A DNA stretch of 64,000 nt, taken from Amphritea atlantica (GTDB lineage: Bacteria; Pseudomonadota; Gammaproteobacteria; Pseudomonadales; Balneatricaceae). Each line of letters opens with the position of its first letter. Position 1 is the stretch's first letter. Shown here one piece after another: positions 16,306-33,253 of the stretch. The stretch is taken from assembly GCA_024397875.1 (NCBI GenBank), contig CP073344.1:2409001-2473000 (forward strand). Direction: 5' to 3'. The notes beneath the pieces are model-generated. The model was not told the DNA's origin. It made no database searches and worked only from the letters and a program-made list of their open reading frames with translations. A program made the position numbers and the translations under genes.

Positions 16306-17124
16306 TCAGGGCAGCAGGAAGTTCTTATGGGTTTGCTTAATAGTTGCAGAAACCGACTGATCTTTCAGGCCAACACCGGAACACTGTAACCGTTGAGATT
16401 CATCGATCAGCCAGATCAGTTTATCGGTTGCCGCTGCGATGCTCATACCCGCAGGACGAACATTTGAGATACAGTTGCGCCGGGCATCGGTTAACCCCAC
16501 CTGAGGCCGGAAGGTAAAGTAGATTCCCAGGCTATCGGGTGAACTGAGTCCGGGACGCTCACCCACCAGCAGAATAAGCAGCTCAACCCCGAGAAGCTCG
16601 CCGACCTCATCACCCACCGCAACCCGCCCCTGACTAACAATAGTGACCGGTGCACTTTTCAGCCCGCGGTTTTCCAAACGGGATAATACTGCCTGAGTCA
16701 TCGCCATCGCATGGCTCTGTACTGCCATCGAGGAGAGTCCATCGGCAATAACAACGGCGACACTGGCACTTTCCGGATGCTGCTGTCGGTATTCCTCCAG
16801 CTGTTCAACGGAACGCAGATCCAGCCGCCTTCCGAGATCGGGACGCTGCAGGTATTCAGTTCTGTCAGCAGCCCGGCTGTGCAGTGTGATGGCATCATAC
16901 CCTGCAGACTTCAGTTGCTCAGCCAGCGCTTCGGTTTTAAGCGCAATATGAACCGCGTCCCGGGCACTGGCATGATCCATCTGAAATTCCAGCAGCGCCT
17001 TAGTCGGCAGGCTCACCCCGCTGCGCCCCTGAGCTATCCGGGCATCGGTATAACGACGTAGCTGACGCCAGGGATTTTCAGTAACAGGCGAATGTTGCTC
17101 CGTTTTCGTTATCTCATTCATCAC
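16306..17124 (-). CDS. eutC: Ethanolamine ammonia-lyase small subunit
   Basis: A 272-residue adenosylcobalamin-binding small subunit. It pairs with EutB to convert ethanolamine to acetaldehyde and ammonia. Typical motifs are DARIAQGRSGVSLPTKALLE, DHASARDAVH, VIADGLSSMAVQSHA and ARRNCISNVRPAGMS. AAGGAG precedes the first ATG by 7 nt; a second ATG follows at once. It lies 19 bp after eutB in the same operon, and a terminator follows. No eutA reactivase, eutH transporter or shell-protein gene is in the window, so the acetaldehyde is handled elsewhere. Confidence 0.95.
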   Translation of the reverse strand: MMNEITKTEQHSPVTENPWRQLRRYTDARIAQGRSGVSLPTKALLEFQMDHASARDAVHIALKTEALAEQLKSAGYDAITLHSRAADRTEYLQRPDLGRRLDLRSVEQLEEYRQQHPESASVAVVIADGLSSMAVQSHAMAMTQAVLSRLENRGLKSAPVTIVSQGRVAVGDEVGELLGVELLILLVGERPGLSSPDSLGIYFTFRPQVGLTDARRNCISNVRPAGMSIAAATDKLIWLIDESQRLQCSGVGLKDQSVSATIKQTHKNFLLP

Positions 17125-17143
17125 ACAGCTCCTTAACCGACCG

Positions 17144-18526
17144 CTATAGCTTCGTCAGCAGGCCACTAAAGGTTTCCGGCATAGTGTCTGCCAGTCGACC
17201 GGAGGCCTGGGTAATACCGACCTGCTGCAACCACCGGTCAAACTCCGGTGCAGGACGCAGACCCAATACCTCACGAATATACAATGCATCATGAAAGGAT
17301 GTGGTCTGGTAGTTGAGCATAATGTCATCGCCTCCCGGAATCCCCATAATGAAGTTGATACCGGCCACCGCCATCTGGGTCAGCAGCATATCCATATCAT
17401 CCTGATCCGCCTCTGCATGATTGGTGTAACAGATATCGCAACCCATCGGCAGCCCCAGCAACTTGCCGCAAAAATGATCCTCCAGTCCCGCGCGGATAAT
17501 CTGCTTCCCATCGTAGAGATATTCAGGACCGATAAAGCCCACTACCGTATTCACCAGCAACGGATCAAAATGCCGGGCGACAGCGTAGGCGCGGACTTCA
17601 CAGGTCTGCTGATCGACACCGTGATGGGCATTGGCCGATAGTGCACTGCCCTGTCCGGTTTCAAAGTACATCACATTGTTGCCGACACTGCCGCGCTTCA
17701 GCTCACGTGCTGCCTGATTCGCTTCGGCCAGCATCGACAGATTAATACCAAAACTGTCGTTGGCCGCCTGAGTGCCGGCGATCGACTGGAATACCAGATC
17801 TATCGGCACACCCCGGTTAATCGCTTCGATCTGATTGGTCACATGGGTCAGCACGCAGGACTGCGTCGGAATGGCGTAATGTTCGATGATATCGTCGAGC
17901 ATTTTTAACAGTTCGGTCACCGCCGCATAGTTATCCGTGGCCGGATTGATGCCGATCACCGCATCGCCGCTACCATACATCAGGCCATCAAGAATACTGG
18001 CCGCCACACCTGCCGGATCATCCACCGGATGGTTCGGCTGTAGTCGGGTCGATAAAACCCCTTTACCCCCAAGAGAGTTACGAAAGGCGGTTTCGTTGCG
18101 ACACCTGGATGCCACCAGAATCAGATCCTGCACCCGCATCAGCTTGGATACCGCTGCCACCATTTCCGGTGTAAGCCCCATCGTCAGCCGCTTCAGCGTT
18201 ACGCTATCGGCCTGATCTGACAACAGCCAGTTTCTGAAATCACCGACAGTCAGATGAGAGACTGGCGCAAAGGCCAGCGGATCATGGCTGTCAATAATCA
18301 GTTGGCTGACTTCATCCGTTTCGGGAGAGATAACCTGTTCATTTAAAAAAGTCTTCAGTGGAAGGTCGGCCAGAGCCATCTGCGCAGCAACTCGCTGGCG
18401 TGAAGAGCCCGCAGCGAGTCCCGCCAGACAATCACCCGAACGCAGCGGCGTTGCTTTAGCCAGAAGATCTTTAAGATCAGTAAACTGCCAGCGCTGCTGA
18501 CCTGCGGTTGCTGAATAACCTGTCAT
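17144..18526 (-). CDS. eutB: Ethanolamine ammonia-lyase large subunit
   Basis: A 460-residue TIM-barrel subunit of B12-dependent ethanolamine ammonia-lyase. Family landmarks are AKATPLRSGDCLAGLAAGSS, GDAVIGINPATDNY, LYFETGQGSALSANA, NTVVGFIGPEYLYDGKQIIR and MGCDICYTNHAEADQ, matching E. coli EutB across its length. The ATG at 18526 (MTGYSATAG) is chosen because GGAG lies 10 nt upstream; the ATG at 18550 has none. The preceding amt2 unit ends in a terminator, so eutBC has its own promoter. Function here: nitrogen (and C2) release from ethanolamine. Confidence 0.95.
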   Translation of the reverse strand: MTGYSATAGQQRWQFTDLKDLLAKATPLRSGDCLAGLAAGSSRQRVAAQMALADLPLKTFLNEQVISPETDEVSQLIIDSHDPLAFAPVSHLTVGDFRNWLLSDQADSVTLKRLTMGLTPEMVAAVSKLMRVQDLILVASRCRNETAFRNSLGGKGVLSTRLQPNHPVDDPAGVAASILDGLMYGSGDAVIGINPATDNYAAVTELLKMLDDIIEHYAIPTQSCVLTHVTNQIEAINRGVPIDLVFQSIAGTQAANDSFGINLSMLAEANQAARELKRGSVGNNVMYFETGQGSALSANAHHGVDQQTCEVRAYAVARHFDPLLVNTVVGFIGPEYLYDGKQIIRAGLEDHFCGKLLGLPMGCDICYTNHAEADQDDMDMLLTQMAVAGINFIMGIPGGDDIMLNYQTTSFHDALYIREVLGLRPAPEFDRWLQQVGITQASGRLADTMPETFSGLLTKL

Positions 18527-18585
18527 GACAGATCGGTCTCCACAAAGCATTTTTCAGATAAACAGGAATTGAAATTGAATAACCG

Positions 18586-18620
18586 AAAAAAGTCCGGGGC
18601 CGCTTCAGGCGACCCCGGAC
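18586..18620 (-). terminator. Terminator of the amt2-small protein unit
   Basis: On the minus strand GTCCGGGG and CCCCGGAC form an 8-bp perfect stem, with an inner CGC/GCG pairing, followed by six T. It lies 10 nt after the small-protein stop and before eutB. Confidence 0.85.
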
Positions 18621-18629
18621 GGTATAACA

Positions 18630-18797
18630 CTACTTATAGTCGATATAAGTGTGATTTTCATGAAGAACACTGGCAACGATGGCACCGGCAGTGACCAGCA
18701 CCGCCAGCCCCAGAATAACCACCATCGCGGTTGGACTGTCAGCAAAGGTAAAATATGCTTCAGCACCTTCCCAGGTCGTAATCGGACTTGTATTCAT
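18630..18797 (-). CDS. Small membrane protein co-transcribed with amt2
   Basis: A 55-residue ORF read directly from the sequence: it starts MNTSPITTWEGAEAYFTFAD, crosses the membrane once (about residues 25-44, TAMVVILGLAVLVTAGAIVA) and ends HENHTYIDYK. GGAGAAAG lies a few nt before the ATG. It begins 11 bp after the amt2 stop, and a terminator directly follows, so the pair is one transcript. I do not recognise a family. A role as an accessory or regulatory subunit of the Amt channel is inferred from linkage only. Confidence 0.75.
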   Translation of the reverse strand: MNTSPITTWEGAEAYFTFADSPTAMVVILGLAVLVTAGAIVASVLHENHTYIDYK

Positions 18798-18808
18798 ACT
18801 CTTTCTCC

Positions 18809-20161
18809 TTAAGCGCTTGCAGTTACTGTCACTTTAGTTGCCGGAATCTCTGAAGAATATGCAGGTACCGATTCCGGATACGCTTCCAGAGGCACCTCAA
18901 CAATATCCAGTCCCATCTCTTCAGCTTTAGGCGGAACTCGCAGGAAGTTCATCTTCGCCATCACGTAGGACAGTCCGAAGCCTGGTACAAAGCCCAGCAG
19001 CGCCATAACCCCGGCACTCATCAGCTGACCGGTGAAGGAAACATCAGGCGCACCATCGATTACATTCGGGAAACCACTGGCAAAGATACCCAGGCCGACA
19101 ATACCGATCAGACCACCAACACCGTGAACCGCGAAAGCACCGACCGCATCATCCACTTTGAACGTCTTAGTGATGAACTTATCCGCCAGAGGTGCAACAA
19201 CACCGCCGGTAATACCCAGCAGGAATGCCAGAGGTGGGTAGTAAAGATCCAGACCCGGGGCCGCAGAGAAAATACCGGCCAGTGCCCCGGACATCATCCA
19301 GAATGGCTGACGGGTCACAAAATAAGCACCGATAATACCGCCGGAGAATGCCATCAGAGTATTGAAGCTAACCGCCGACAGCGTCACCGGGGTACCGAAA
19401 ATAGTGGTCCACTGAGCGCTGCCTGCATAGATGATACAACCACCGAGGAAACCGAAGAAACCCACGATAATCAGCATCAGACCGATAATAGTCATCGGCA
19501 TGCTGTGACCTTTAATATCGACCACAGTGCCATCTGCCAGGAAACGACCAATACGTGGCCCCAGATTGATGGTGACACCCAACGCAAAGAAACCAGCAAC
19601 CATGTGTACGCAACCTGCCGCACCAAAGTCATGGAAGCCCCACTCAACGGTCAGCCAGCCGGTTGGGTGCCAGCCCCAGGAAGCCCCCAGAATCCAGACA
19701 ACAGACCCCAGAATAATCGCCAGAATCAGGAAGGAACTCATGCGGATACGCTCGATCACCGCACCCGAAAAAATCGATGCCGTCGTTGCAGCGAACAGTA
19801 CGAATGCTCCCCAGAAGATACCGCTGGCATTATCGGCCAGGTTAGGCCCCATATTAGTGGACCAGGGCAGACCGGCTGCGGCCGCTTCATAATCCGGGGT
19901 AAAACCGTTATACATTGCCAGATAGATCCACCAGCCAAAGAAAAAGAAGGTGGGGATAATAAAGGCGAATGCCAGAATATTTTTCACACCGGAAGCCAGT
20001 GCGTTCTTCAGGCGGGATGCACCCATCTCATACGCCAGAAAACCTGCATGGATAATTACCATCAGGCCGGTACACCACCAATAGAAAACTTCCATATTGA
20101 TGGTGCCCGTCATCTCAATCAGAGTTTGTAACTCTGCAAGTGTTGGGGCTGTCTGCTCCAT
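18809..20161 (-). CDS. amt: Second ammonium/methylammonium transporter, divergent Amt
   Basis: A 450-residue Amt-family channel with about 11 helices. Pore histidines lie in GCVHMVAGFFAL and AFAVHGVGGLIG. It differs strongly from the glnK-linked Amt: it has a longer N-terminus without signal peptide, an extra loop NGFTPDYEAAAAGLPWS and a C-terminal tail. GAGAGG is 8 nt upstream of the ATG. It is not linked to a PII gene but to a small membrane protein. A good sigma-54-like promoter lies about 110 bp upstream. Its position next to tdm/tmm suggests recapture of ammonium or uptake of methylated amines, which is inference. Confidence 0.9.
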   Translation of the reverse strand: MEQTAPTLAELQTLIEMTGTINMEVFYWWCTGLMVIIHAGFLAYEMGASRLKNALASGVKNILAFAFIIPTFFFFGWWIYLAMYNGFTPDYEAAAAGLPWSTNMGPNLADNASGIFWGAFVLFAATTASIFSGAVIERIRMSSFLILAIILGSVVWILGASWGWHPTGWLTVEWGFHDFGAAGCVHMVAGFFALGVTINLGPRIGRFLADGTVVDIKGHSMPMTIIGLMLIIVGFFGFLGGCIIYAGSAQWTTIFGTPVTLSAVSFNTLMAFSGGIIGAYFVTRQPFWMMSGALAGIFSAAPGLDLYYPPLAFLLGITGGVVAPLADKFITKTFKVDDAVGAFAVHGVGGLIGIVGLGIFASGFPNVIDGAPDVSFTGQLMSAGVMALLGFVPGFGLSYVMAKMNFLRVPPKAEEMGLDIVEVPLEAYPESVPAYSSEIPATKVTVTASA

Positions 20162-20461: not shown

Positions 20462-22780
20462 TTAACTTCTGACCCGGGTTCGCTCCGGATCATAGAAAGG
20501 TAATGAGGTGACGCTGACCGGTATCCGCTTACGCTGGCCATCCAGCTGACCGACTTCCAACGCCGTACCGGACTCAGAAAACTGTGGCTCAATCCGACAC
20601 AGAGCGATCTGATTTTTAGTCGCTGGCGAATAGGTTGAACTGGTGATAACACCGACGGGAAAGCGACCATTAAAGACAGCATCACCGTGACTGACAGGTT
20701 CCTGACTATTGATAATTAAGCCCACCAGCTTTTTACGACTGGCAGGGTTCTGAGCGGCTATCGCTTCACGCCCGACAAAATCATCGGTCTTCGTTTTCAG
20801 GGGAACCGTAAAGCCGATACCCGCCTCATAAGGGTTGGTTTCTGTACAAAACTCATGCTCGGCAAAGATCAGACCCGCTTCGATGCGCAGCATATCCAGT
20901 GCATCAAATCCCAGCGGAGCGATGCCATACGGCTCACCGGTTTCCCAGATACGATCCCACACCTGTTCGGCCTTCGCGGGATGACACCAGACTTCAAAGC
21001 CCAGCTCCCCGGTATAGCCGGTACGGGATATCATCACCGGAATACCATCCGGACCATCCAGCCGACCGGTCATAAAGCGGAACCACCCCAACTCAGACAC
21101 GGGCGTGCAGGCTTCTCCGTTCCAGATAATTTGCTGTAACAGGTTACGGCTTTGTGGTCCCTGCACTGCAACGTTATGTATCTGATCCGTTGATTCCCTC
21201 ACCTGCACCTGCAATCCCTTTTCCTTTGCTAACTGGCGTAACCAGATACCGCAATAGGAATCACCACAGATCCAGCGAAACGCGTGCTGCCCCAGCCGGA
21301 ACAGGGTACCGTCATCGATCATGCCGCCGGTGCTGTGACACACGGCTGAGTACACCACCTCACCAATCGCCATTCGACAAACATTACGCGTCAGGGCATA
21401 CTGCAGCAGCGTTTCTGCATCAGGTCCCAACACTTCAAACTTTCGCAGCGGCGTCAGGTCAATGACGGCAACCCGCTCCCGACAGGCCAGGTATTCAGCT
21501 CTGGCACCATAGTTCTGATATTCTGCAGCCACCCAGTAGCCCCGGTACTCAGTAAAGTGCTTGGTCAGGGCGGAGGTTCGGCCATGGAAACCGGTCGGCT
21601 TAGTCATACGGGATTGTTCCTCTGGTGTTATCCGGTATCCCACTGAACGGGGAAACTCACAGGTTGCGGGATAGATGCGAATATGAATATCGGTCGGATT
21701 CCAGCCATTGGCCGGATCGATATCATCGGGACAGGCGGATGAAGCACAGATCAGATCGCGGCTAGCCCTTAACAGTACGTAGTCACCGGCTCGCGACCAG
21801 GGCTCCTGAAAGCCAATGGTGCCGCAATCTCCGGCACTCGTGTTAAAAAAGAAGTTGATTGCAGGCCAGCCTGCACGGGGAGCGATATCGTAACGGCTCA
21901 GACTGCGGTTAAAGTTTTCAGTACAGTTGATATGACCGAAATAACCGCTGTCTTCATAATATTTGCTGTTACAGGCAAACAGAAAGCTGTCGTGACGGCC
22001 AACTGTGTCCTGCACCACCTCAAGCATGGTTTGCTGCCGGGCATCGGTAAATTTTGAGTGCAACCCCGGTTGCGGCAGCGTCAGACCGTTCAGAGTGCGG
22101 GTCGCTACCCCATCCAGAGGTTCCTCTCTCCCCTCCTTCAGCGCTACGGCATCGAAAGCAATAAAGTCACTGCACTGCTTGCCCTCAACATCAATAATCT
22201 GAATCCACTCGCCGGCTTTTACTTCATAGCTCGTCGCACTGCAGCGAGGCACACGAAACTCACTACGGGGGCTCGCCAGTGGCTGTGGCAGGCTGCTTTC
22301 GGCCACCGTATAGTGTGCGACCTGCAGTTCAGTCACCGGAGACTGATCAGCTACCTGCATATCCCTGCCACAACAGAGAACAATCAGAGTGGCCTCCTGC
22401 GTTACTTCAAAGTCAGGCAGTGCCTGCGCCTCAAAGCGGAATGCCTGCTGTAAAGCCTGCTCGCCGATGCCCCATGCCAGTAACAGCTCATTTAAGCGTA
22501 ACGCCGAATCACTCTGCTGATCTAACTGAGCCAGAGCCCCCTCTGCTTTATCGGCACATACTTTGACAAGATCATTTTGCGCCAGATATGAGTCCAGAGG
22601 CTGGCCCTGGGCATCAATAAACAGCAGTTCACATCCCTGATTGCTGTCCGCCGAGGTGATACAAACGCTGTCTCCAACATGCAGATCAAGACGCAGAGCC
22701 CCCTGTCCCTCAACCCGATACCACCGGGGGGAGCTACTTTTGTTTAATGCATCCTGAGCACATTGTTGCTGAATCGTCAT
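20462..22780 (-). CDS. tdm: Trimethylamine N-oxide demethylase (aldolase)
   Basis: A 772-residue enzyme that splits TMAO to dimethylamine and formaldehyde. The N-terminal half is a DUF1989-type metal-binding domain. Cys270 (FACNSK), Cys286 (HINCTEN) and Cys350 (CASSACPDD) keep the 16- and 64-residue spacing that I recall for the zinc cysteines of the Methylocella enzyme. From about residue 390 a GcvT/aminomethyltransferase domain binds tetrahydrofolate (YALTRNVCRM, SRTGYTGELGFEVW), so the formaldehyde can be captured as methylene-THF. The start at 22780 has GGGGA 6 nt upstream, whereas the ATG at 22807 lacks one. It is divergent from a two-component system and 2.5-3 kb from tmm. Confidence 0.92.
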   Translation of the reverse strand: MTIQQQCAQDALNKSSSPRWYRVEGQGALRLDLHVGDSVCITSADSNQGCELLFIDAQGQPLDSYLAQNDLVKVCADKAEGALAQLDQQSDSALRLNELLLAWGIGEQALQQAFRFEAQALPDFEVTQEATLIVLCCGRDMQVADQSPVTELQVAHYTVAESSLPQPLASPRSEFRVPRCSATSYEVKAGEWIQIIDVEGKQCSDFIAFDAVALKEGREEPLDGVATRTLNGLTLPQPGLHSKFTDARQQTMLEVVQDTVGRHDSFLFACNSKYYEDSGYFGHINCTENFNRSLSRYDIAPRAGWPAINFFFNTSAGDCGTIGFQEPWSRAGDYVLLRASRDLICASSACPDDIDPANGWNPTDIHIRIYPATCEFPRSVGYRITPEEQSRMTKPTGFHGRTSALTKHFTEYRGYWVAAEYQNYGARAEYLACRERVAVIDLTPLRKFEVLGPDAETLLQYALTRNVCRMAIGEVVYSAVCHSTGGMIDDGTLFRLGQHAFRWICGDSYCGIWLRQLAKEKGLQVQVRESTDQIHNVAVQGPQSRNLLQQIIWNGEACTPVSELGWFRFMTGRLDGPDGIPVMISRTGYTGELGFEVWCHPAKAEQVWDRIWETGEPYGIAPLGFDALDMLRIEAGLIFAEHEFCTETNPYEAGIGFTVPLKTKTDDFVGREAIAAQNPASRKKLVGLIINSQEPVSHGDAVFNGRFPVGVITSSTYSPATKNQIALCRIEPQFSESGTALEVGQLDGQRKRIPVSVTSLPFYDPERTRVRS

Positions 22781-22871: not shown

Positions 22872-23031
22872 GCACTCAACAAACCGATGAAGCGGCAGAC
22901 CAGATGCCAAAACATTGTTTCTTGATGGTTAAAAATATTTACTCATAGTGATTTCAGGCGCAATCATCAGGAAGGAGTAATCCATTGTGAGTACCCGGCC
23001 ATCTGTGGCACAGATGCTGCTTACTAATTAC

Positions 23032-23091
23032 CTAATAACAGAGCACGTGATAACAGAGCACTTCATAACTGCGCATTGCGTAACTGAACGC
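23032..23091 (+). repeat. Four degenerate 15-bp repeats before the histidine kinase
   Basis: CTAATAACAGAGCAC, GTGATAACAGAGCAC, TTCATAACTGCGCAT and TGCGTAACTGAACGC follow each other without gaps. Read in frame with the kinase they encode repeated ITEH-like pentapeptides. They lie between the two possible kinase start codons. Confidence 0.8.
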
Positions 23092-23127
23092 TTCCCTCAC
23101 AGGAAGACGAGCTGTAAGGAGGTTAGA

Positions 23128-24282
23128 ATGGCGGTATCGATTCCACTGTGGATGCACAATTTCCCATGGTTATTGCGCGAGCAACCGGCGAAACAAAAAG
23201 AGACTGTCTGCGCGCCAGCCCTGACTCAACTGGTGGTTGATCTGGCCTGTAGTGATGATATCCGGCAAAGCCTGGAACAGACTCTCAACCGACTACAAAG
23301 TTATGTCAGCTTCCATCTTGACGCTGACATCTTTCTTATCGGAGTGCCATCACCCCACAGGGATCAGCTGTTGCACGCATCGACAATAACCCCTCCGATA
23401 GGGCTTGCGGGACAACTCCGCTATCAGCTCACCGAACACAGCGTGCACGATGCCAATGAACTGCGTTATAAACTACCCGGCAGTTCATTATCGGTTCACG
23501 CTTTGCAGCTACCCTTTGATATCAACCATCCGGCCTGCTGGATGGTGCTGTGTTTCAAAGAGAGACTTCCGGAAAGTGAGCAGATTAACCGGATATCGGG
23601 TCCGGTTGCTGAAGCGCTGAACGCAGGCCTGGGAGGCTGGTACCGTCAGCAATCCCGGATAAGTGCCGCCATTTCGTCAGAAAAAGCAGCCCATGCTGCC
23701 GAGCTGCACGACTCAATGGCCCAGATTCTCGGCTATATGCGAATTAAAGCCTCCCGGCTTGCCGACCAGTGCAAGCGCAAAGCAGAACCTGAACTGGCAG
23801 AAATAAGTGAAGACCTGTGCCACCAGGCCCAGTGTGCCTATCGACAGACCCGGGAACTGATCGCCTGCTCACGACTGTCCATCGAACAGGGACAATTGAT
23901 CGATGCCATCAGTCAGGCGATCGGTGAATTTGAACAGCGCAGCGCTGTAGTCTTTGAACTGGACAACCGGGTGGGATCGCAGCTGATCACTAAAGATGAT
24001 TCCCAGACAATTTTTATCATTCGCGAAGCACTCAACAATATCGTGCGCCACTCTCATGCAAGTCATGCACGGGTGCAGCTACTGCGTCAGAATGATTCGT
24101 CTATCCGTATCCGGGTTGAAGATAACGGTAAAGGGATCTGTGCTGATCAGACCCGACAGGATAGTTTTGGTATGAAGATCATGCAGGAACGGGCGGAAAA
24201 GATTCAGGCAAACCTGTTTATCCTGTCCCCTAGGCAAGGCGGTACCCGTATAGAGCTGATTATCCCTGATCTTAGCGTATGA
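23128..24282 (+). CDS. Soluble NarX/NreB-type histidine kinase
   Basis: A 384-residue kinase with no membrane helix. Residues 1-185 are a GAF-like sensory region without a clear signature. The HisKA_3 dimerisation box is AAELHDSMAQILGYM (His194), and the HATPase has REALNNIVRHSHASHARVQL near residue 299 and VEDNGKGI. The ATG at 23128 has a perfect TAAGGAGG 5 nt upstream. An in-frame GTG at 22987 also has AAGGAG (9 nt) and would add 47 residues with pentapeptide repeats; both starts may be used. The response regulator gene follows 12 bp downstream. Placed between tdm and tmm, it probably senses a methylated amine or related signal (inference). Confidence 0.85.
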   Translation: MAVSIPLWMHNFPWLLREQPAKQKETVCAPALTQLVVDLACSDDIRQSLEQTLNRLQSYVSFHLDADIFLIGVPSPHRDQLLHASTITPPIGLAGQLRYQLTEHSVHDANELRYKLPGSSLSVHALQLPFDINHPACWMVLCFKERLPESEQINRISGPVAEALNAGLGGWYRQQSRISAAISSEKAAHAAELHDSMAQILGYMRIKASRLADQCKRKAEPELAEISEDLCHQAQCAYRQTRELIACSRLSIEQGQLIDAISQAIGEFEQRSAVVFELDNRVGSQLITKDDSQTIFIIREALNNIVRHSHASHARVQLLRQNDSSIRIRVEDNGKGICADQTRQDSFGMKIMQERAEKIQANLFILSPRQGGTRIELIIPDLSV

Positions 24283-24294
24283 GCGGCACTCACT

Positions 24295-25062
24295 ATGAAT
24301 AAAGATCCGATAAGCGAGCCCCTTATGAATGAAACTCTGATCACAAACATCATTATTGTTGACGACCACCCACTGTTTCGGCGCGGTGTCGTTGAGCTGC
24401 TGAATGACAGTGGTGAGTTCAGGGTCCTGGCGGACTTTGAGAGCGGACAGCAACTACTCGATGCACTCCCTGAACTCCAGGCAGACCTGCTGTTGCTGGA
24501 TATGCATATGCCTGCGTTGTCGGGACTGGAGCTGTTACAGCAGCTTAAACAACAGGGCGCTGAGCAGAAGGTGGTCTTTCTCACCGCTTCAGATGACAGC
24601 TCGGAGCTGTTTCAGGCGATCTCCTCTGGCGCCAACGGTTATCTGCTGAAAGACGCCGCACCTGAAGAGATTATCAGCGGTCTTAAAGCGGTAATGCTCG
24701 GTAATATCGCCATGGATAATACCGGCGTGACGATGCTGGCACACCACCTGAGTAAAGGCGATATTCAGGCAAAGGAAACACCCGCCGCCAATAACTTCGA
24801 TCTGACCGAGCGGGAACAACAGACTCTGGAGCTGATCACCCGCGGAATGAGCAACAAGCTGATCGCCCGGGAGCTGGGAATCAGTGATGGCACAGTTAAA
24901 GTCTATGTTAAAAACCTGTTACGCAAACTGAACGTGAACACGCGCCTGGAACTGGCCGCATGGGTTCACGCCAATATGTCTCAGGCCAATATGTCTCAGG
25001 AAGGTATGTTTCATACAAGTCTGCCTGACACCCACTATTCCGATTCGGAGGATGGCCTGTGA
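24295..25062 (+). CDS. NarL/FixJ-family response regulator
   Basis: A 255-residue regulator. The receiver domain carries the acidic pair in IIVDDHPLFRRGVVELL, the phospho-Asp of LLLLDMHMPALSG (Asp69) and the Lys of GYLLKDA. The LuxR-type HTH is LTEREQQTLELITRGMSNKL, then LGISDGTVKVYVKNLLRKLN. The start could be 24295 or 24325; neither has a convincing Shine-Dalgarno. The C-terminal tail contains a perfect 15-bp tandem duplication (ANMSQ twice). It is the cognate partner of the kinase and probably controls tdm and/or tmm. Confidence 0.88.
   Translation: MNKDPISEPLMNETLITNIIIVDDHPLFRRGVVELLNDSGEFRVLADFESGQQLLDALPELQADLLLLDMHMPALSGLELLQQLKQQGAEQKVVFLTASDDSSELFQAISSGANGYLLKDAAPEEIISGLKAVMLGNIAMDNTGVTMLAHHLSKGDIQAKETPAANNFDLTEREQQTLELITRGMSNKLIARELGISDGTVKVYVKNLLRKLNVNTRLELAAWVHANMSQANMSQEGMFHTSLPDTHYSDSEDGL
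24970..24999 (+). repeat. Perfect 15-bp tandem duplication at the 3' end of the regulator gene
   Basis: GCCAATATGTCTCAG occurs twice in tandem, followed by a decayed third copy (25000-25014). It encodes ANMSQ-ANMSQ in the tail after the HTH, where length changes are tolerable. Confidence 0.9.
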
Positions 25063-25844
25063 CAGTACTCAACCTGTTTCGACGTCCTGCGAAAACAGAA
25101 CAACCCGACCTGTCGGAACTGCTTGATAGTCTGGGCGATGCCGTTTTAGTCTTCAACAGTCTTCTGGAAATCAAGTATGTGAACGCCTGTTGGAAAACCC
25201 TCACCGGATACAGTAGTAAAGAGGCAATCCATAGCAGCTTCAGTGACTATATCCATCCGGAAGATCTCAAAAACTGGATCGAAATCACGCAACAGATAAG
25301 CCACACTCAGGACAGTCAGTGTATCTGGTTCCGTTTAATCCGTAAGGATAGCGAAGTCCGCTGGTGTGAGATTCGTTTACAGCCATTGAAATCTGACCGC
25401 CCTTTCCCACTGACCGCCACGCTTTGTGACATCACCCCGCAAGTACGCAATGATGAAATCAGCAAAGCCAGCCATCGCAGCCTCTCCGGTTTAGTTAACC
25501 GCATACCGGGGATGCTCTACCGGGGCCGCAACGATACCCGCTGGACCATGGAGTATATCAGTGAGGGATGTCTTGATCTGACCGGCTACAGCCGTGATCA
25601 ACTGCTCAATCAGACGCAACTCTCTATCGGCGGGCTGATTCACCCCAACGATGCAGTAAGAGTCTGGGAAACAGTCCAACAGGCGCTGCAGCAACACCGC
25701 TGCTTTGAACTGTACTACCAGATACTCCATGCCGATGGACAATACCGTCAGGTGTATGAGAAAGGTCAGGGCATATACTCCTCAACGGGTGCAGTGCTGG
25801 GTATAGAAGGGATTATTCTTAATATCAGCCCCCCTTCAGAGTAA
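25059..25844 (+). CDS. Tandem PAS-domain protein without output domain
   Basis: A 261-residue protein of two PAS domains (about residues 20-130, LLDSLGDAVLVFNSLLEIKY with YIHPEDLKNW; and 150-260, YISEGCLDLTGYSRDQLL with IHPNDAVRVW). No kinase, GGDEF, EAL or HTH follows. It starts with GTG overlapping the stop of the response regulator gene (GTGA), with GGAGG upstream, so it is translationally coupled. It probably binds a signal or cofactor and acts on the kinase, much as NreA (a GAF protein) does for NreBC; this is an analogy. Confidence 0.8.
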   Translation: MTVLNLFRRPAKTEQPDLSELLDSLGDAVLVFNSLLEIKYVNACWKTLTGYSSKEAIHSSFSDYIHPEDLKNWIEITQQISHTQDSQCIWFRLIRKDSEVRWCEIRLQPLKSDRPFPLTATLCDITPQVRNDEISKASHRSLSGLVNRIPGMLYRGRNDTRWTMEYISEGCLDLTGYSRDQLLNQTQLSIGGLIHPNDAVRVWETVQQALQQHRCFELYYQILHADGQYRQVYEKGQGIYSSTGAVLGIEGIILNISPPSE

Positions 25845-25943
25845 TCCGGTTACCCCTTTTGACTTATCCACTCTGGGGAATTTATCACACCTCAATATCT
25901 GAATAACCTGATGAAAAGAACGTCAATAATCAGGAGATTTCAG

Positions 25944-27311
25944 ATGACCAAACGCGTAGCGATAATCGGTGCCGGCCCCAGTGGTCTGGCGCAACTTCGG
26001 GCCTTTCAATCAGCTCAGGAAAAAGGGGCTGAGATACCCGAACTGGTCTGTTTTGAAAAGCAGAGCGACTGGGGGGGCTTATGGAACTACAGCTGGCGTA
26101 CCGGTTTAGATGAGCATGGCGAACCGGTTCACGGCAGTATGTACCGCTATCTCTGGTCCAACGGACCGAAAGAGTGTCTCGAGTTTGCCGATTACAGTTT
26201 TGATGAACACTTCGGCAAACCAATCGCCTCCTACCCTCCCCGTGAAGTCCTCTGGGATTACATTAAAGGCCGGGTAGAGAAAGCCGGAGTTCGCGATTAT
26301 ATCCGCTTCAACACCCCGGTCCGCAATATCACCTTCGATGACACCACCAAGCTCTTTACCGTTACCGTACACGATCACAATACCGATACCGTCTACTCAG
26401 AAGAGTTTGACCATGTTGTCTGCGCATCCGGTCACTTTTCCACCCCCCGGGTACCGGAGTTTGAAGGCTTCAGCACCTTCGGCGGCCGCATTCTGCACGC
26501 CCATGACTTCCGTGATGCACTGGAATTCAAAGATAAAGATATTCTTCTGGTTGGCAGCAGCTACTCCGCTGAAGATATCGGTTCACAGTGTTATAAATAT
26601 GGTGCCCGCAGTCTGGTCAGTTGCTACCGCACGGCGCCAATGGGTTACAAGTGGCCGGAAAACTGGGAAGAAAAACCGCTGCTGCAACGGGTTGATACCG
26701 ATACCGCCTATTTTGCCGATGGCACCAGTCGCAAGATCGACGCCATTATTCTCTGTACCGGATATCTGCACCACTTCCCCTTCATTGATGAGTCTCTGCG
26801 CCTTAAAACCGATAACCGTCTGTGGGCGATGGATCTCTATAAAGGGGTCGTCTGGGAACATAACACCCAGATGTTCTATCTGGGCATGCAGGATCAGTGG
26901 TACACCTTCAACATGTTTGATGCCCAGGCCTGGTATGTTCGGGATGTCATCATGGGCACCATCACTCTGCCAGAAACCAAAGAGGAGATGGTTGCCAACA
27001 GCATGGAATGGCGCGAACGCGAGCTGACACTGGAAACCGCCGAAGAGATGTTCACGTTTCAGGGTGACTATATCCTTGAACTGATTGAGGCCACCGACTA
27101 CCCGACCTTCGATATCGAAGGTGTACGTCAGACATTCCTCGAATGGAAACATCACAAGAAGGAAAACATCATGACCTTCCGCGACTTCTCCTTCCGCTCC
27201 CTTATGACCGGCACCATGTCACCGCCGCATCACACCCCGTGGATCGATGCACTGGACGATTCTCTGGAAGCTTACCTGTCTGACGAAAGCGAAGTTAAAC
27301 AAGCCGTTTAA
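25944..27311 (+). CDS. tmm: Trimethylamine monooxygenase
   Basis: A 455-residue flavin-containing monooxygenase that oxidises trimethylamine to TMAO with NADPH and O2. The FAD motif [13 protein letters not shown] is at residues 6-18. The FMO signature [11 protein letters not shown] (FxGxxxHxxxF) is near residue 179, and the NADPH motif [13 protein letters not shown] near 202. Length and the N-terminal region [14 protein letters not shown] match bacterial Tmm of marine and methylotrophic bacteria. AGGAG lies 8 nt before the ATG at 25944; the longer 25911 start has none. It is downstream of the sensor genes and upstream of a cupin gene. Confidence 0.92.
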
Positions 27312-27365: not shown

Positions 27366-27716
27366 ATGAATCTGGTCACAAAAATTATCGATAAAACGGT
27401 CACCCCGATCACCGACGATCTGGATGGTTGGGAGAAGGTCGAAGGCAATCCCACCATGACCACCTGGATCGAATACACCAGCCCGGATGAGTCGATGATC
27501 ACCGGTTGCTGGTCTGCTACACCCGGCATCTATCGCGCCAGCTACGCCAGCTGGGAGTTCATCCATCTGATCGAAGGCGAAGTCATCATCACTCAGGATG
27601 GCCAGGATCCGGTCACCCTGCTGCCCGGCGATGCATTTATGGTCGATGCGGGATTTACCGGCACCTGGGAGATCATTCAACCGGTATTTAAACACTTTGC
27701 GATTAAATTAAAATAA
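27366..27716 (+). CDS. Cupin-domain protein in the tmm operon
   Basis: A 116-residue single-domain cupin of the DUF861/EutQ-like class: SWEFIHLIEGEVIITQDG and LLPGDAFMVDAGFTGTWEI. It lacks the full His-His-Glu-His set, so metal binding is uncertain. GGAG lies 5 nt before the ATG. It follows tmm by 54 bp and is followed by a terminator, so it is the last gene of the tmm unit. An accessory or ligand-binding role is plausible; nothing more specific is supported. Confidence 0.7.
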   Translation: MNLVTKIIDKTVTPITDDLDGWEKVEGNPTMTTWIEYTSPDESMITGCWSATPGIYRASYASWEFIHLIEGEVIITQDGQDPVTLLPGDAFMVDAGFTGTWEIIQPVFKHFAIKLK

Positions 27717-30602: not shown

Positions 30603-31622
30603 TCAGTTCAGCGGATCAAACTGTGACAGGTAATCCACCACCGTACCGTGAAAACGGGTTAAACCTTTATAATTGATCAGGGGTTCGGGCAGGGTTTTCA
30701 TCGCCCGGTGCATCCGTACCGCCCACTCTTTGTTAGTCACCAGGTCTTCCAGGCTCAGCAGATAGGTGCGAATGCTGAACATCATCGCATTACTACGCGG
30801 CATCCGGTCCAGCACCTGCACTTCGACCCGCAGATAAACCTTTTCACCGACGTTTTCAGGCGTAACAGAAGCGCGTTCGTGGCCCCACTCATGATATTTC
30901 TCCGGCGAGGTATCCATCCGTGCATTCACGGTCAGGGTCCAGTTAAGGCGGCGCACCGGTTTACCCACCGGAATCGCGATCAGATATTTCAACGCCCGCT
31001 CAAAGATACCTTCGCTGTGGGCCATCGGTACCGGACCATGCCACTCTTTGAAACTCATACCGGCATCAAAAGCCAGTGACCAGTCTGCCGGGCAGGTAAT
31101 AATGCCGGCATCCAGAAAGAGGTCGCCTTCGCGCTGATCCAGCAACGCAAAATCACCCTGCACCTGCCGGCCGATATAGTCCAGTGGCGGCATCGGCAGT
31201 GAACTGCTGTCGCCAAAGGTAAACTGATCCTTAATATTCAATAGTTTATTCTCCCAGCTCCACAGATCACCCTCACGAGTGAGGCTGAAGTAGTCCGGGT
31301 AATCTGCTGACAGAGAGAGCATGATCCGTTCAACCATATCCCAGCAGGCCAGATCCATATGAGGCATCGCCAGACAACGCTGCGGCATATCATTTAATAC
31401 CTTCTGCCGCTCAGCCATCTCTGACAGATAGTGCTCATCGATATCGAGAAACTTTTCAAAGGCCGAGCCCTCCCCACCTTTCGGCAGATGAGGCTCCATA
31501 TTGACCGAATAACGATATTCATCCTCGGCGAATGGGAAAGGAAAACGCTCAATCGCTTCAGCACTGTTGCTATAGGTAAAATCGTCTCGAAAACTCTGTA
31601 TATCTTTCGGTGCTACACGCAT
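30603..31622 (-). CDS. dmmC: Dimethylamine monooxygenase subunit, DUF3445 haem-dependent N-demethylase family
   Basis: A 339-residue member of the DUF3445 family, known as haem-dependent oxidative N-demethylase. Visible features are FPFAEDEYRYSVNMEPHLP, the MPHMDLACWDMVERIMLSL helix and the C-terminal HERASVTPENVGEKVYLRVE with RMPRSNAMMFSIRTYLLSLE. It is the presumed catalytic oxygenase unit that converts DMA to methylamine and formaldehyde with electrons from the adjacent reductase. AGGAG lies about 9 nt before the ATG, 12 bp after the reductase stop. The subunit letter follows gene order in the published dmmABC set and is my assignment. Confidence 0.82.
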   Translation of the reverse strand: MRVAPKDIQSFRDDFTYSNSAEAIERFPFPFAEDEYRYSVNMEPHLPKGGEGSAFEKFLDIDEHYLSEMAERQKVLNDMPQRCLAMPHMDLACWDMVERIMLSLSADYPDYFSLTREGDLWSWENKLLNIKDQFTFGDSSSLPMPPLDYIGRQVQGDFALLDQREGDLFLDAGIITCPADWSLAFDAGMSFKEWHGPVPMAHSEGIFERALKYLIAIPVGKPVRRLNWTLTVNARMDTSPEKYHEWGHERASVTPENVGEKVYLRVEVQVLDRMPRSNAMMFSIRTYLLSLEDLVTNKEWAVRMHRAMKTLPEPLINYKGLTRFHGTVVDYLSQFDPLN

Positions 31623-31634
31623 TGTTCTGCTCTC

Positions 31635-32603
31635 CTAAATATCTAAAACCAGCCGATCACCTGCAGCCCTTGATACGCAGGGCATCATCACCTGACCCGA
31701 TTGTTTTTCACGGTCACTGAGATAGCTGTCACGGTGTTCTACTTCCCCCTCTGCTACATCGCAGACACACTGACCACAGACACCCGCACGGCACAGGTTA
31801 GGGACGTTAATATCAGCACTTTCCAGGGTTTCCAGCAGACTGCTGTCGGCCGCTACGGCCAGTTCTGCGCCGCTGCGACTGAGTTCAACGACAAAAGGCA
31901 GGCCCGGTTTGGCACCGGCAAACTCCTCCCAGTGAATCGCACTGGCAGGAACCCCCATCCCATCAGCGGTTGCCCGCACCGCGTCTATCAGGGCCTCAGG
32001 GCCGCAAATGTAGAAGTGTGTCCCCAATGGCTGACCCGACATCACCGCAGCGATATCACAGCGATTACCCAGGTCAGCGTCGTAACAACTGCACCCCGAT
32101 CCCAGGTTTTCTTGCAGCTCAGCACTGTAAGCCCCGGTCTGTTTGCTGCGATACATATAATGAAGCTCAAACTCAGCCTGACGTTGCTGCAGTTCTGGCA
32201 GATAGGACAGGAACGGCGTAATACCCACTCCGCCCGCAAACAACACATGTTTCTTGGCCATCCACTCGGGGGCAAACAGGTTCGCCGGAGGCGAGATCTT
32301 TAGCTGTGTACCGACCTCAACCTGTTGATGCATATAGACAGAGCCACCCCGGGAATCGTCCTGCAGGCGTACCGCTATCCGATACTGACGGCTATCCAGC
32401 GGATCGCTCATCAGAGAGTAGGCATTACGATAGCTGTGCTTATCAGTGCCGGAACCTGTACTGACCATCTCTACGACGATGTGAGCCCCTGGCGAAAATG
32501 GCGTCAACAGGCCATCCTGCGGTTCGAGCGTAAACTCTTTAATCAGCGGTGCGACCTGCTTGATCGCGGTCACCCTGACGGGAATCTGATCGATATTACT
32601 CAT
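31635..32603 (-). CDS. dmmB: Dimethylamine monooxygenase reductase subunit
   Basis: A 322-residue phthalate-dioxygenase-reductase-type protein. It has an N-terminal flavin domain (NAYSLMSDPLDSRQYRIAV), an NAD domain (KKHVLFAGGVGITPFLSYL, HFYICGPEALIDAV) and a C-terminal plant-type 2Fe-2S domain with NLCRAGVCGQCVC and a final Cys in MMPCVSRA. It moves electrons from NAD(P)H to the oxygenase. Its ATG shares one base with the stop of the preceding gene (TGATG), indicating translational coupling. It resembles vanillate demethylase reductase; context decides for DMA. Confidence 0.87.
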   Translation of the reverse strand: MSNIDQIPVRVTAIKQVAPLIKEFTLEPQDGLLTPFSPGAHIVVEMVSTGSGTDKHSYRNAYSLMSDPLDSRQYRIAVRLQDDSRGGSVYMHQQVEVGTQLKISPPANLFAPEWMAKKHVLFAGGVGITPFLSYLPELQQRQAEFELHYMYRSKQTGAYSAELQENLGSGCSCYDADLGNRCDIAAVMSGQPLGTHFYICGPEALIDAVRATADGMGVPASAIHWEEFAGAKPGLPFVVELSRSGAELAVAADSSLLETLESADINVPNLCRAGVCGQCVCDVAEGEVEHRDSYLSDREKQSGQVMMPCVSRAAGDRLVLDI

Positions 32604-33124
32604 CAGCTAACCTCCCTTCTTTCAGGCATATCGGCACTGTCCTCGGCATTCGCCTGATAGCCAAAATAGGCACTGTGAAGCCGGGCAAAATGGTCCGTCA
32701 CTTCAAGGCTGAGACCGCATCCGGCACAGATGAACGGTGAGTAGGTCACCCCTTCGGTTATCTGATGACAATGACAGCAGAACAGATGACGTTCACGGGT
32801 TACAGGCGTCAGCATGCGAATCTGATCGGGACGCAGGCCAGCTTGTCGGGCCTGACTGGCCACCCGCCATATAAAGGGCTCGGTTCCCGCCAGATAGAGT
32901 GTGCCCACCAAAGGAAAACTCGCCAGCGATTTAAGCAACTCAGGATCACTGGCATCGGGATATACAGCGACTGCTTTATCCTTACTACAATGATCATAAA
33001 GTGACTGCATCGCAGGCGTGACGCTCTGTTCTGCTATAAACAGGTGAAAACTGGATTTAGGATTCAGCTCTACCGGCTGATAGGCCGGTTTACTGACAAC
33101 CCCGTTAAACTGCTCTGTCTGCAT
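32603..33124 (-). CDS. dmmA: DmmA-family subunit of dimethylamine monooxygenase
   Basis: A 173-residue protein with a central Rossmann-like region (VGTLYLAGTEPFIWRVASQA) and a C-terminal metal-binding knuckle, HLFCCHCHQITEG with FICAGCGLSLEV. It then has FARLHSAYFGYQANAE, typical of DmmA-family proteins. First gene of the dmmABC operon; the next start overlaps its stop. Its exact job (electron transfer or assembly) is not evident from sequence. A sigma-54-like element begins 40 bp upstream of its ATG, with the glnK-shared 17-bp motif alongside. Confidence 0.8.
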   Translation of the reverse strand: MQTEQFNGVVSKPAYQPVELNPKSSFHLFIAEQSVTPAMQSLYDHCSKDKAVAVYPDASDPELLKSLASFPLVGTLYLAGTEPFIWRVASQARQAGLRPDQIRMLTPVTRERHLFCCHCHQITEGVTYSPFICAGCGLSLEVTDHFARLHSAYFGYQANAEDSADMPERREVS

Positions 33125-33190: not shown

Positions 33191-33253
33191 TATGAGAGGC
33201 AGACAGAACCCTCAATTGTCACGAAGAGGTACTCTAAAGGAGGTAATCCCAGC

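Follow-up and report, generated by a model that had tools for sequence, protein, structure and literature searches.

Three genes in a 64,000-nucleotide stretch of the Amphritea atlantica genome (assembly GCA_024397875.1, contig CP073344.1, positions 2,409,001 to 2,473,000; hereafter the window) encode a soluble histidine kinase, a NarL-type response regulator and a stand-alone protein built of two PAS domains (PAS-PAS protein). All three are on the plus strand, between the divergent tdm gene for trimethylamine N-oxide (TMAO) demethylase on the minus strand and the tmm gene for trimethylamine (TMA) monooxygenase on the plus strand. Comparison of related loci gives good support to the view that these genes are a conserved trio regulating methylated-amine catabolism. 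We regard it as probable, at about 0.7, that the trio is a dedicated regulatory system for this catabolism, in which the PAS-PAS protein is the sensing subunit.

In the mechanism that we propose, the soluble NarX/DesK-type kinase would phosphorylate the NarL-type regulator, which would bind palindromes of the type TACYY-N6-RRGTA before tmm, tdm and the dimethylamine monooxygenase (dmm) genes and probably activate them. The PAS-PAS protein would detect a methylated amine or one of its oxidation products and may set the kinase activity through direct contact. In Oceanospirillales-type loci, the trio would be transcribed from a sigma-54-type promoter, possibly with nitrogen control on top. The computed basis of this proposal is conservation, linkage, domain make-up, the palindrome and its placement, and the sigma-54-like element.

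The trio and its linkage to tmm, tdm and dmm

The kinase gene (23128..24282, plus strand; Pfam HisKA_3 and HATPase_c) starts at a conserved ATG behind AAGGAGG. The equivalent ATG, also preceded by AAGGAGG, is present in all seven genus members, and the frame upstream of it is closed in five of the seven, staying open further in the window and in G014. For these reasons the start at GTG 22987 that an earlier reading of the sequence alone (the sequence-only reading) had given was rejected, and the kinase is taken to have 384 residues and the 141 bases at 22987-23127 to be promoter or regulatory DNA. The regulator gene (24295..25062, plus strand; Pfam Response_reg and GerE) begins at ATG 24295 or possibly at ATG 24328, and the 12-bp gap claimed to follow the kinase holds only with the former. 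The PAS-PAS gene (25059..25844, plus strand; 261 residues) starts at GTG 25059, with GGAGG upstream, and overlaps the regulator stop as GTGA, as had been described. The frame map, hydropathy and Pfam likewise bore out the description of three genes on one strand, flanked by divergent tdm and by tmm, of a kinase without membrane helices, of a NarL-type regulator and of a PAS-PAS protein without output.

The probable targets of the trio are tdm (20462..22780, minus strand; NCBIfam TmaoDeMthMsil 1053 bits, just under the cut-off of 1100), tmm (25944..27311, plus strand; NCBIfam trimeth_mono 839 bits, cut-off 675) and the dmm genes (30603..33124, minus strand), which comprise three frames matching Pfam HODM_asu-like (242 bits), DmmA-like_N/_C and Fer2 and NCBIfam mono_DmmA_fam (86 bits, cut-off 60). 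The probable tdm start is ATG 22780, the one seen in five of six genus relatives.

Among 95 genomes of relatives, including the window's own, tmm was found in 26, and the loci of the other 25 were compared. Kinase, regulator and PAS genes occur in this order in 15 of the 25, each time beside tdm or tmm. A profile built from 16 PAS-PAS proteins detected 212 related stretches in named records, and the best 80 of the 212 were analyzed; these named loci partly overlap the relatives' genome set (L077 and G016:C11, for example). The trio is in order in 76/80 named loci, and tmm, tdm or dmm lies within 8 kb in 69/80, all of which have the trio. Every named locus with a PAS frame shorter than 330 residues has one of these genes within 8 kb (62/62). 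Seven linked loci have longer PAS frames, six of which end no more than 17 residues past the PAS match, the seventh being L102. The named loci include Amphritea, Neptuniibacter, Marinobacterium, Oceanobacter, Pseudomonas, Stutzerimonas, Acinetobacter and Burkholderia, and the closest named relatives, among the matches listed, are from Amphritea and an Oceanospirillales metagenome-assembled genome.

A search was also made in 390 genomes drawn evenly from the order, with at most six candidates scored per genome and with the stand-alone PAS-PAS protein defined by an E-value of 1.5e-73 or better and a frame of at most 358 residues. It was found in 15 of the 31 genomes with tmm and in none of the 359 that lack this gene. 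G110, which has no tmm, carries a fused 698-residue PAS-PAS form, and 40 further genomes with weaker matches (1.8e-39 or weaker; frames of at least 364 residues) were left out of the stand-alone count. The linkage in the 80 named loci and the 390 genomes led us to reject the trio as a chance neighbor of tmm and tdm. The co-occurrence in other genomes for which the sequence-only reading had suggested a search is therefore present, and the trio does not stand mostly away from tmm and tdm in relatives.

Other arrangements were seen at several tmm loci. Beside tmm and tdm, L067:10000-10896 encodes a 299-residue protein with two LuxR-type helix-turn-helix (HTH) domains (GerE-GerE) and one PAS_3 domain but no receiver, as if the sensor and DNA-binding parts of the trio had been fused. 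In a related genus, a PAS-HisKA kinase and a FixJ-like regulator lie directly before tmm (L070:7106-8856 and L072:11071-12818, the latter judged by frame). The neighbors of six tmm loci without the trio (L066, L068, L069, L073, L074 and L075) include two LysR proteins among 25 of 49 families listed, in a scan of 41 of the 54 proteins listed for seven loci. The tmm of L041 (G021) has one internal TAA. On an Acinetobacter indicus plasmid (L224, 118830-137555), the whole tdm-trio-tmm-dmm cluster adjoins replication and partition genes, and Acinetobacter accounts for 20 of the 38 plasmid records in which PAS-PAS matched.

Palindromic sites and promoter elements

The NarL consensus describes 7-2-7 sites, TACYYMT-N2-AKRRGTA. 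As a search pattern for the 80 loci the full consensus was too strict, a site within one mismatch of it being present in 18/80. When the dyad TACYY-Nk-RRGTA was counted over the same loci, k=6 was the commonest spacing, with 47 sites against 1-19 at any other k from 0 to 24, and five order-1 Markov nulls for TACYY-N6-RRGTA gave 1-3 sites. By their sequence, the enriched sites resemble the NarL consensus. The 47 sites are spread over 41 loci. Gaps preceding tmm, tdm, dmm or the kinase gene contain 31 sites, from 28 loci; another 5 are inside mapped genes and the rest are elsewhere. In Pseudomonas-type loci the sites lie 105-120 bp from the estimated tmm start; in Neptuniibacter, Marinobacterium, Oceanobacter and Cobetia they lie 147-173 bp from that of tdm; and the corresponding distance for dmm is 86-129 bp.

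A position weight matrix (PWM) was made from 25 unique sites, with the Amphritea loci excluded, and scanned over the 64-kb window. Its first-ranking match is a predicted palindrome 106 bp before the dmm genes (33230..33245). A 7-2-7 site in the tdm/kinase gap (22978..22993) ranks fourth. Two overlapping predicted sites on the plus strand before tmm (25851-25866 and 25865-25880), conserved across relatives, rank seventh and eleventh, and the first of them lies 93 bp before the tmm ATG. The remaining seven of the top 11 matches are inside listed open frames.

A site scoring at least 6 bits was present in the 240 bp before tmm in 23/23 genomes with the trio and in 1/21 others (Fisher 1.2e-11); at an 8-bit threshold the counts were 21/23 and 1/21. 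The 6-bit threshold was picked from five, some of the PWM training sites came from the same groups, and the comparison covered 44 genomes, with G193 left out because no locus was available for it. The site is retained at tmm even in G047 and G410, where the trio is beside tdm and tmm lies about 18 kb and about 109 kb away, respectively.

Several observations weigh against a dedicated system acting through these sites. In the 390-genome sample, 16 of the 31 genomes with tmm have no trio, so the trio is not universal. The strict dyad is present in 41/80 loci and hence missing in 39/80, and the window's own tdm/kinase site is degenerate; better-matching palindromes occupy this gap in some relatives. 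G038, which has no trio, scores 8.6 bits before tmm. The association of site and trio is phylogenetically non-independent: three changes suffice to place the trio label on the Tmm tree, against a shuffled mean of 14.8, which indicates clustering, and of three independent pairs two agree and one shows no difference. Finally, the bare dyad hardly exceeds its control over the whole genome in G000 (53 vs 45), so it is position and neighbors, rather than the motif alone, that carry the argument for the sites.

The DNA before the kinase gene contains further elements. A sigma-54-like -24/-12 element (23006..23021, plus strand) is the only match in the window on both strands; it was found with a relaxed pattern chosen after the strict one had missed the window. 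This pattern occurs before the kinase in 24/75 kinase-bearing loci, where 0.77 were expected, and all 24 fall among the 26 loci L076-L100 and L134. A sigma-54-type promoter before the trio in Oceanospirillales-type loci would suggest nitrogen control on top of the trio. A block reading GGTTAAAAATATTTACTCATAGTGA (22927..22951) is near-identical in seven genus members, with a related block across the family. The tdm/kinase gap also contains AGTGCA (22839) and TGGTGCA (22868), which we take to resemble NtrC half-sites. The kinase leader, at about 23036-23095, shows by eye about four 15-base repeats of ATAACNGNGCAC, which are found partly in G006 and are absent from the other five genus members.

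A small EutQ-like cupin gene (27366-27716) follows tmm and is retained in many trio loci. The ethanolamine ammonia-lyase genes eutB and eutC and an ammonium transporter gene adjoin tdm (16306-20161), and are retained beside tdm in Amphritea, Neptuniibacter and some Marinobacterium.

The PAS-PAS protein as candidate sensor

The kinase consists of a variable N-terminal alpha/beta domain, a long helix, HisKA_3 and HATPase_c, and its His194, within LHDS, is invariant. The maximum 19-residue hydropathy was 1.15 for the kinase and 1.26 for the PAS-PAS protein, against 2.57 for an Amt control, so neither has a membrane-like segment. The kinase matches NCBIfam NarQ at 154 bits (cut-off 553), the match being restricted to residues 207-427 of the 431-residue frame, and the regulator matches NCBIfam NarL at 198 bits, under the cut-off of 250. 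A Pfam search of the kinase with E up to 0.1 detected no PAS domain. The predicted kinase model is of moderate quality (predicted local distance difference test, pLDDT, 74.7), with LOV kinases, VraS and DesK as structural matches, and residues 28-143 may be read as GAF-like by topology alone. In the PAS-PAS protein, Pfam matched PAS_3 in two stretches and neither GGDEF nor EAL. Its predicted model has two PAS folds linked by a helix at 126-147 and is good per domain (pLDDT 82.4; predicted template-modeling score 0.46). Among the 50 Foldseek rows listed for this model were the PAS pairs of LOV-HK, DosP, FixL and MmoS, together with many eukaryotic bHLH-PAS pairs.

Across nine relatives from outside the genus, mean identity was 74% for the HTH, 55% for the second PAS domain (PAS-2), 52% for the receiver, 50% for the dimerization and phosphotransfer part of the kinase, 46% for its catalytic part, 34% for the first PAS domain (PAS-1) and 20% for the kinase N-terminus. 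Because PAS-2 is conserved at 55% and the kinase N-terminus at 20%, the shared sensor is more likely to be the PAS-PAS protein than the kinase's own N-terminus. The residues that mark the trio against other PAS domains are R157, E165, W203 and Q207 in PAS-2 and W45 and W73 in PAS-1. The set behind this comparison was mixed, including L067 and L070-L072, and comprised 22 sequences for PAS-2 and only 6 for PAS-1, with 2-6 per column.

The relatives of the PAS-PAS protein suggest where it came from. At the score limits used, 11/80 loci are without tmm, tdm and dmm, and all 11 have PAS frames of at least 460 residues. Ten were scanned (L131, with 1017 residues, was left out), and all ten have PAS domains followed by GGDEF, with EAL as well in L107, L129, L130 and L135. 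The GG[DE]EF signature is degenerate in eight and intact in L122 and L144, and the EAL triplet is missing in all four EAL domains. Nearby genes include a TMA dehydrogenase in L130 (1276 bits to 1djn), sarcosine-oxidase-type genes in L107 and a related one, below the cut-off, in L129, a TMAO permease in L135 (827 bits, cut-off 690), glutamate-synthase-like genes in L111 and a Tdm fragment at a contig edge in L106. In L101, L122, L123, L131 and L144, the few neighbors scanned included no clear amine gene. In L122, L135 and L144 the kinase and regulator genes are on the opposite strand.

We infer that the stand-alone form arose by decay and then loss of the cyclic di-GMP (c-di-GMP) part of a PAS-PAS-GGDEF(-EAL) enzyme, a direction drawn not from a rooted tree but from relatives at this gene position whose GGDEF and EAL motifs have degenerated. 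Going further, and somewhat short of even odds, the PAS-PAS protein could be the stripped remnant of a dead diguanylate cyclase/phosphodiesterase, now a free receptor that controls a soluble kinase in trans. In many Gamma- and Betaproteobacteria, this three-part system would then be a main regulator of the use of methylated amines. On this tentative account, the LuxR-HTH pair fused to one such PAS in L067 and the PAS-kinase of L070, both beside tmm, would be the same sensor type on other outputs.

As for the signal, the sequence-only reading had proposed a sensor system for TMA or TMAO. Its regulatory tie to methylated-amine catabolism stands by linkage and sites, but a strictly TMAO-specific signal is argued against, because the trio loci L130, L107 and L111 show neither tmm nor tdm in the compared stretch. 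A methylated amine common to the TMA, dimethylamine and monomethylamine (MMA) routes is a likelier candidate ligand than TMAO alone.

It is also possible, if doubtful, that the trio regulates the methylated-amine genes while responding to a downstream or redox signal, such as formaldehyde, one-carbon folate or the flavin redox state. Trio loci also adjoin other amine or one-carbon genes where tmm and tdm are missing from the compared stretch, and the tandem-PAS redox sensor MmoS (3ewk) had the highest template-modeling score among the 50 Foldseek rows listed (0.57 by query). According to the available parts of the two papers, Ruegeria TmaR responds to MMA-derived catabolites (PMC13390433) and Paracoccus FlhRS responds to formaldehyde (PMC8879981). 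By sequence, however, the one solved chain matched by the PAS-PAS profile at E <= 1e-6 is not MmoS.

It is unlikely that the kinase N-terminal domain is the sensor, with the PAS-PAS protein only tuning or localizing the kinase or persisting as a non-essential relic of a lost c-di-GMP enzyme. The relatives with degenerate GGDEF at the same gene position lend themselves to such a scheme, since the PAS-PAS protein may descend from a protein with another role. The conservation of PAS-2 over the kinase N-terminus speaks for the PAS-PAS protein instead, as does the position of the PAS gene after kinase and regulator in nearly all of the 80 loci, a count biased by a search that began from PAS-PAS. 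We consider it very improbable that the trio acts as a general stress or nitrogen regulator merely travelling with the cluster on mobile DNA. The Acinetobacter indicus plasmid, which carries both cluster and trio, is compatible with such transport; the placement of most palindromes in the gaps before tmm, tdm, dmm or the kinase gene, and the persistence of the tmm site in genomes where the trio is distant, argue against this reading.

Relation to known systems and significance

NreABC, the oxygen/nitrate system of Staphylococcus, combines a soluble HisKA_3-type kinase, which carries a PAS domain with an iron-sulfur cluster, with a NarL-type regulator. The trio shares with it this kinase and regulator type and the overall plan of a kinase, a regulator and a separate soluble sensor protein. 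The likeness to NreABC noted in the sequence-only reading is thus retained for the plan but not for the separate protein, and plain membership in NreABC was rejected: here this protein is PAS-PAS (Pfam PAS_3 twice, two modeled PAS folds), last in gene order and adjoining amine genes, and the trio kinase shows no Pfam PAS domain. In contrast, NreA is a GAF protein and nitrate receptor that regulates the oxygen-sensing NreBC, as described in the available part of PMC8199190. The same text calls NarX and NarQ transmembrane, whereas the trio kinase has no membrane-like segment. NarX-NarL and NarQ-NarP are the best NCBIfam matches of the trio's kinase core and regulator, but the kinase is far below and the regulator below the cut-offs, and the trio is linked to amines.

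FlhRS of Paracoccus is a formaldehyde-responsive two-component system that controls one-carbon genes, including methylamine dehydrogenase; the likeness to the trio is one of description, and the available part of PMC8879981 mentions no separate PAS-PAS partner for FlhRS. In Methanosarcina mazei, a kinase with an amine-binding dCache_1AM domain is clustered with a dimethylamine methyltransferase (PMC10104139). This is also kinase-linked amine sensing beside a dimethylamine gene, but the sensor is dCache, the host is archaeal, and the available part of the paper mentions no PAS-PAS partner. In Ruegeria pomeroyi, TmaR acts on the tmm, tdm and dmm promoters and TmoR on tmm, and TmaR homologues are reported in some Gammaproteobacteria, according to the available part of PMC13390433. 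The target genes are those proposed for the trio, but TmaR and TmoR are single AraC- and GntR-type regulators, and the terms 'two-component' and 'histidine kinase' do not occur in the main text of that paper. No AraC- or GntR-type regulator was found among the 25 window proteins scanned with Pfam. Given the Methanosarcina kinase and TmaR/TmoR, as far as the available text describes them, the earlier statement that no system of this kind had been described was too strong. Gene order is shared with the PAS-PAS-GGDEF(-EAL) proteins of L101, L106, L107, L111, L123, L129 and L130, which have a homologous PAS pair and also follow kinase and regulator; they retain GGDEF or GGDEF-EAL with degenerate signature motifs, whereas the trio's PAS-PAS protein has neither. 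Among open-licence papers we found no account of the kinase-regulator-PAS-PAS trio with tmm or tdm, and the available parts of PMC4744692, PMC6514802, PMC4543880 and PMC5520151 contain none.

Methylated amines are an important share of the dissolved organic nitrogen in the sea and contribute to cloud condensation nuclei, and it was in the alphaproteobacterium Ruegeria that TmaR and TmoR were established as regulators of tmm and tdm (available part of PMC13390433). The trio and its predicted sites provide a testable regulator for Amphritea, Marinobacterium, Neptuniibacter, Pseudomonas, Stutzerimonas, Acinetobacter and Burkholderia. The trio may also be a case in which a signaling enzyme lost its catalytic part while its sensor stayed in service.

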